Shown here piece after piece: positions 53,647 through 54,471 of a stretch of DNA of 64,000 bases. This DNA comes from Sphaerobacter thermophilus DSM 20745 (GTDB lineage Bacteria; Chloroflexota; Chloroflexia; Thermomicrobiales; Thermomicrobiaceae). Below the pieces are notes generated by a model. The model worked only from the letters and a program-made list of their open reading frames with translations, had not been told where the DNA came from and did not search any database. Within the stretch, counting starts at the first letter, position 1, and every line of letters begins with the position of its first letter. Location: NCBI RefSeq assembly GCF_000024985.1, contig NC_013523.1, forward strand, positions 186,001 through 250,000. The letters are read 5' to 3'. The translations under genes and the position numbers were made by a program.

Positions 53647-54471
53647 GTGGCGCGGGTTGCCCTGCTTGCCGACCGGCTACGTGTTGAGGAACGCCTGCTG
53701 ATCGAGGCGTTCGCGGCCCGGGGGCACGAGGCGGTGCTGGTGCAGCCCGCCAAGTTGGCCCTGTCTCCCGCTGCGCCGAGCGCGGGCGACTTTGTCGCGG
53801 CGCTCGACCGCGGCGAAGCCACGGCCGAACGGGCGGTGCTGGCGGCGCTGCTGGCGTCCGGCGGCACCCCGGTGGTGAACCGGGCAGCCACCGCCCGGCT
53901 CCTGGCCGACCGCATGGCGCTGCTGCGCCACCTGATCCTGGCGGACATCCCGGTGCCGGAGACTCGCGTCTGCTTCGGCGAGGAGGCGATCTTCGCCGCT
54001 ATCGCGGAGATCGGCTATCCGGTCGTTCTCAAGTCGCTGACGGTGGATCCCGGTTTCCCGGTGGCGCTGGTCGAGGACCAGGATGCGGCCGAGGCGATCG
54101 TCGAGCACCGGATCATGCTCGGCGGCGAGCGCGCGGTGCTGGTGCAGCAGTTCATCCCGGCCCGGGCCGGGCAGTCGGTCCGGCTGGTCGTCGCCGGTCG
54201 GTCGCTCGCGGGGATCGAGCAGCGGACCCACGGCGGCTGGCGGCCCGGTCGTGACGCGACGTATGAGGCGTACACCGGGGATCCGGCCCCGCTGACGGCC
54301 CTGGCCGAACGGATCATCGAGCGGCTCGGCACCGGCACCTACGCGGTGGAGGTCGTCGAGACCGGCGACGGGCCGGTGGTGGTTGGCGTGGCCAACCTGG
54401 TCGATTTCCGCTCGCTGAGCGGGCGGGGCGTCGACGTGGCAGGAATGATCGCTGATTTCGTGTTGGGATAG
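53647..54471 (+). CDS. divergent LysX-like ATP-grasp protein, probably catalytically altered
   Basis: A 274-residue paralog of LysX, the ligase that couples LysW to its amino acid. The overall fold is retained: N-terminal RVALLADRLRVEERLLIEAF, the ADRMALLRHLILADIPVPET segment, and YPVVLK with Lys129. But the phosphate-loop segment [13 protein letters not shown] of true LysX is replaced by SLTVDPGFPVALV, and the metal-binding EVN is VAN (248-250), followed by DFRS instead of EFKN. Only the intact copy at 55650 keeps these. It may be a regulator, scaffold or enzyme with changed function. GTG start. Confidence 0.75.
   Translation: MARVALLADRLRVEERLLIEAFAARGHEAVLVQPAKLALSPAAPSAGDFVAALDRGEATAERAVLAALLASGGTPVVNRAATARLLADRMALLRHLILADIPVPETRVCFGEEAIFAAIAEIGYPVVLKSLTVDPGFPVALVEDQDAAEAIVEHRIMLGGERAVLVQQFIPARAGQSVRLVVAGRSLAGIEQRTHGGWRPGRDATYEAYTGDPAPLTALAERIIERLGTGTYAVEVVETGDGPVVVGVANLVDFRSLSGRGVDVAGMIADFVLG

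Follow-up and report, generated by a model that had tools for sequence, protein, structure and literature searches.

A degenerate ligase gene beside lysW

The window analysed here, a stretch of 64,000 nucleotides from Sphaerobacter thermophilus DSM 20745, carries a gene directly after lysW whose product (X2) resembles the LysX/ArgX ligases and has lost much of their ATP-grasp site. This raises the question of what a broken ligase can be doing next to the gene of the carrier protein. The start codon of X2 lies 6 nt past the lysW stop codon, and X2 is encoded together with lysW, lysK, lysY, lysZ and lysJ, the gene context of LysX/ArgX (Table 1). The C-terminal EDWGE of LysW is present in 80 of 81 LysW sequences. 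The presence of a degenerate LysX paralog at this position, as described in the original prediction, is confirmed: X2 has 30% identity to the second copy, X (E 6e-29), and scores 108.7 bits with the LysX family model TIGR02144, below the cut-off of 275.6. It also falls below the cut-off of the RimK family TIGR00768 (99.9 against 143.4 bits) and lacks the intact ATP site of that family. The LysX pre-ATP-grasp domain PF22626 is detected at 74.6 bits, and a PHROGs search gave no match. X, which had been described as intact, does pass TIGR02144. The same genome has a third, intact LysX-type ligase (X3), which stands alone on the other replicon (G000:C2:584705-585526; L051:8658-9539, minus strand), scores 335 bits with TIGR02144 and has a TMEF signature as in Thermus LysX. 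As regards the methyltransferase gene of the operon, some genera of the family of the window (f1) have it in this position and others lack it.

Table 1. Genes of the operon and sequence features of X2 (coordinates refer to the window)
Feature	Coordinates	Strand	Evidence
lysW, amino-group carrier protein, 53 aa, C-terminus EDWGE	53479..53640	+	TIGR01206 74.6 bits, cut-off 53.2
X2, degenerate LysX/ArgX-family ATP-grasp paralog, 274 aa, GTG start	53647..54471	+	family searches, orthologues
X2 RLRVEER (residues 10-16); R10, R12, E14, E15 invariant in 35/35 degenerate X2	53674..53694	+	alignment
X2 R89 in place of first ATP lysine (LysX K94); Arg in 35/35 degenerate X2	53911..53913	+	alignment
X2 VDPGFP (residues 133-138) in place of GSWGR phosphate loop	54043..54060	+	alignment
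X2 EHRIMLG (residues 153-159); EHR invariant in 35/35 degenerate X2	54103..54123	+	alignment
X2 GVAN (residues 247-250) in place of EVNx with Mg-binding Glu and Asn	54385..54396	+	alignment
X2 F254-R255, conserved end of EF[KR] motif	54406..54411	+	alignment
lysK-type LysW-amino acid hydrolase	54550..55653	+	NF003367 463 bits, cut-off 363
X, intact LysX/ArgX-type ligase (18-residue signature)	55650..56546	+	TIGR02144 297.9 bits, cut-off 275.6
lysY/argC-type reductase	56640..57716	+	TIGR01850 409 bits
SAM methyltransferase inserted between lysY and lysZ	57807..58433	+	family search, orthologues
lysZ-type LysW-amino acid kinase	58547..59383	+	NF010659 416.8 bits
lysJ/argD-type aminotransferase	59380..60552	+	TIGR00707 416.6 bits, cut-off 410

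Residues and fold of X2

The sequence of X2 was compared with 201 intact LysX/ArgX sequences and within a set of 35 degenerate X2 proteins. The reported replacement of the phosphate loop and the retention of Lys129 both stand; K129 (K134 of LysX) is the only one of the two ATP lysines that is kept. Regarding the metal site, the loss of the glutamate was correctly described, but the VAN motif had been shifted by one residue. When the alignment is anchored on Phe254, E254-V-N256 of LysX corresponds to G247-V248-A249 of X2, so that the asparagine is lost too and N250 is not its equivalent; the Mg ligands D242, E254 and N256 are represented by E235, G247 and A249. The earlier list of losses was right as far as it went but incomplete, since K94, the R182-D183 pair, H203, T206, N207 and the A209-R-G loop are missing as well. 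Q167 and R179 are retained. The change of K94 to arginine and the losses of the loop and the glutamate recur in all 35 degenerate orthologues, and the degeneracy of X2 is therefore not due to chance.

What has been kept is equally regular. In 28 alignment columns at least 90% of the 35 degenerate proteins have one residue, among them R10, R12, E14, E15, R55, R89, D144, A148, A150, E153-H154-R155, L158, G159, Q167, F254 and R255. R12, E14, E15 and R55 are nearly invariant in intact LysX/ArgX also, and most of these have EHK or EHR. RimK has none of the motifs RxRxEE, EH[KR] and EF[KR]. They are found in LysX/ArgX of Thermus, Sulfolobus and Thermococcus, with some variation that mostly concerns the first Arg, and this pattern of conservation suggests contact with LysW. 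We also asked whether conservation in X2 favours LysX-specific columns over generic ATP-grasp columns, and the answer was negative (retention of 40% against 47% in f1, 35% against 33% in f3, a second family of the order); the losses cluster at the active site in both kinds of column alike.

The structure of this protein is already in the PDB. X2 is identical over 274 aa (100%) to entry 5I47, released on 2016-03-16 under the title "RimK domain protein ATP-grasp from Sphaerobacter thermophilus DSM 20745", and we found no functional assignment with the deposit. No paper was found in the open literature on 5I47, on Sphaerobacter lysine biosynthesis or on lysX in Thermomicrobi-. The family, the fold and the deposited structure are thus known, and we could find no described function for the dead X2 lineage. 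Modelled with AF2, the window protein has TM scores of 0.90-0.96 to 5I47 and 0.83-0.88 to LysX (3vpd). For the f3 proteins, a model from 17 sequences has a pLDDT of 90, and its top PDB match is the ArgX-LysW complex 3vpb. According to these models X2 still folds as a LysX-like protein after loss of the ATP site.

LysX, the alpha-aminoadipate-LysW ligase of Thermus thermophilus (1UC8/1UC9/3VPD), shares with X2 the fold, PF22626, RxRx[DE]E, the EH[KR] helix, the EF[KR] end and the place beside lysW; unlike LysX, X2 has no GSWGR, K94, Mg ligands D242/E254/N256, R182-D183 or HWxTNxARG loop. The fold is also common to ArgX, the glutamate-LysW ligase of Sulfolobus tokodaii (3VPB/3VPC), which was solved with LysW and ranks first among the structures matching the most decayed X2. 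The VPEF[KR] end of ArgX is found in f3 X2, whereas its catalytic residues are lost in X2. RimK (ribosomal protein S6-glutamate ligase) is the opposite case: it has the ATP-grasp fold in common with X2 and keeps the ATP site, but has none of the three motifs.

Distribution and evolution of X2

The gene order lysW-X2-lysK is found in 38 of 38 loci of Thermomicrobiales with lysW and lysK on one contig, including the window. All 38 genes after lysW are open X2-type frames, and X follows lysK where the contig continues. At the 15 other f1 loci every X2 has the identical set of losses. All of families f1 to f3 lack the ATP and Mg residues, namely the phosphate loop, K94 and the Mg-binding Glu and Asn. 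Erosion has gone further in f3, where K134 is also missing, the loop is two residues shorter and residues 196-213 are deleted, although the frame is open in every genome. Less decayed forms, with K94, K134, PGRD, D242 and E254 kept, are present at three loci (G023 and G027 in f4, G024 in f5).

These data bear on whether X2 could still be an active enzyme with a rebuilt site, either a ligase for another substrate, as had been proposed, or a sensor binding a nucleotide or an amino acid. Some capacity for ligand binding may survive in f1, which keeps K129, Q167, R179 (88%) and E238 (94%), and many catalytic residues are kept in the f4/f5 members. Against this, the loss of ATP and Mg residues in f1-f3 disfavours a ligase for another substrate, and in f3, with K134 and two loop residues also gone, the pocket has no new conserved set of residues except an invariant Asp at the Glu position. 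We regard an active X2 as unlikely.

Selection on X2 was estimated by NG86 in eleven pairs of close relatives, with dN/dS of 0.10-0.30, higher than for its neighbours in the same comparison (0.02-0.10 for X and 0.03-0.15 for lysK). It had been suggested that X2 is under coding constraint and may be a pseudoenzyme, and that conserved substitutions and low dN/dS among orthologs would support a maintained function. Both points are supported: substitutions are conserved, dN/dS is low, and every f1 relative is degenerate, none having the full motif set. The conserved losses in all f1 relatives together with these dN/dS values show that X2 is not a local pseudogene. It combines a loss of catalytic residues shared across species with purifying selection on the protein, as a pseudoenzyme does; the disrupted frame or neutral evolution of a pseudogene was not found. 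A gene in decay, or one kept only for expression through translational coupling, would account for X2 evolving faster than its neighbours and for identities between families down to about 25-35%. This explanation is nevertheless highly improbable, as the frame is open in every genome, dN/dS is well below 1, invariant residues extend over the order and the predicted fold is confident. The pseudogene reading was rejected as contradicted by the selection and conservation data.

In order to look beyond the order, we drew on 80 loci from named genomes and, for 301 Chloroflexota genomes, on the best hits. Among the rows listed, GSWGR and EVN are intact in every X-type protein outside Thermomicrobiales. 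The LysX after lysW is intact in all cases examined, which include other families of the class, other Chloroflexota, haloarchaea and Planctomycetota; within this sampling X2 therefore appears confined to one order. The sister family of the class (f12) has lysW, an intact X3-type LysX, lysK and X, and families f6-f10 have lysW, an intact X3-type LysX and lysY. In f6 (L105, L106, L129) lysW is in tandem, with two or three copies per genome ahead of the intact LysX. Trees recover a single X2 lineage (SH-aLRT 91 with 17 rows, 98 with the 15 degenerate rows), in which the three less decayed f4/f5 members have support of 97/96, and place it outside both X and X3, on long branches. The f12 arrangement, with an X3-type protein after lysW, suggests that X2 occupies the ancestral slot of LysX (X3). 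Today X3 lies downstream of X in f3, after lysJ in f4 and on another contig in f1.

Pathway, neighbouring ligase and possible role of X2

The lysine setting of the original prediction is probably wrong, as genome and operon evidence favours arginine. ArgJ was not found in the genome, the operon lysZ is the sole kinase of the ArgB family above the cut-off, and DapA and LysA are both above the cut-off, while homocitrate synthase LysS gave nothing above it. In f3 relatives the ornithine carbamoyltransferase gene argF lies directly upstream of lysW. On this evidence the operon at 53479-60552 probably makes ornithine/arginine via LysW, and the intact ligase X, with an EFKG ending like that of Sulfolobus ArgX, may accordingly be the glutamate ligase ArgX. 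X3 shares its TMEF ending with Thermus LysX and may be an aminoadipate-type ligase. A second carbamoyltransferase gene is located between argF and lysW in f3 (L079:4063-5127, L050:1994-3091, L078:5205-7178 and others), with HPIE/HPLE replacing HPxQ and HESMG replacing HVSMG. Two of them were tested and both exceed the ornithine carbamoyltransferase cut-off, but these enzymes may have another substrate.

The catalytic ligase X has itself changed in two families. His159 of its EHK helix is kept in 23 of 23 sequences of f1, f4, f5 and f12 and is Gln in 20 of 20 of f2 and f3; in these two families X2 keeps EHR (19/19) and X3 keeps the His (18/18). The ligase-binding tail of LysW is EEGEDWGE in f3 (L050, L067-L090) and EEEEDWGE or similar elsewhere. 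Each of these two changes may be a single ancestral event, and they are hints only.

One explanation of the persistence of X2 is that it forms a heteromer with the catalytic X as a regulatory or stabilising subunit, which would not need to bind LysW by itself. X2 is a paralogue in the operon of X and is encoded with it wherever the contig is long enough, the LysX and ArgX structures have several chains per entry, and His159 of X is changed in the families with the most decayed X2. However, f12 has an intact X without X2, so X does not generally need X2, and lysK separates the two genes. We consider such a heteromer the main alternative to the reading given below, possible but less likely. HisZ, a catalytically dead histidyl-tRNA synthetase paralog, is the partner of HisG; X2 would be analogous as a dead paralog kept inside an amino-acid pathway, although the folds are unrelated and the heteromer of X2 is only hypothetical.

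We lean, if not strongly, towards X2 being a non-catalytic protein that handles LysW or regulates its use, derived from the LysW ligases, conserved and specific to the order. The basis for this reading is the shared loss of catalytic residues, the fold, the fixed synteny, the purifying selection and the restriction to one order; counting against it are the negative column comparison, the residues kept in f1, a dN/dS above that of the neighbours and the many catalytic residues kept by the f4/f5 members. X2 would no longer bind ATP and Mg productively, and would not form a LysW-gamma-amino acid. Having kept the LysX/ArgX fold, it most likely still engages LysW and, made beside LysW at the head of the operon, would act as a non-catalytic carrier-handling or regulatory component. 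The control or shuttling of LysW by X2 that had been put forward at the outset is, judged from sequence, plausible. A more specific version, which we offer only tentatively, is that amino-group carrier-protein biosynthesis has in X2 its first dedicated non-catalytic partner. Once a LysW ligase, X2 would now serve the ligase system as a LysW-docking or regulatory subunit, and would have assumed the function of the EHK helix that ArgX has lost (H159Q) where X2 is most decayed.

Pathways of the LysW type have been described as a carrier plus enzymes, and a conserved dead ligase next to the carrier would bring in a further layer, of regulation or carrier handling. Such a role would also give a function to 5I47, for which none was found although it has been in the PDB since 2016, and the annotation is corrected in that the "lysine" operon probably makes arginine. 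Living species hold a graded series, from the intact slot of f12 through partial decay in f4/f5 and the dead form of f1 to the stripped one of f2/f3, which could be used to study the change from enzyme to pseudoenzyme.
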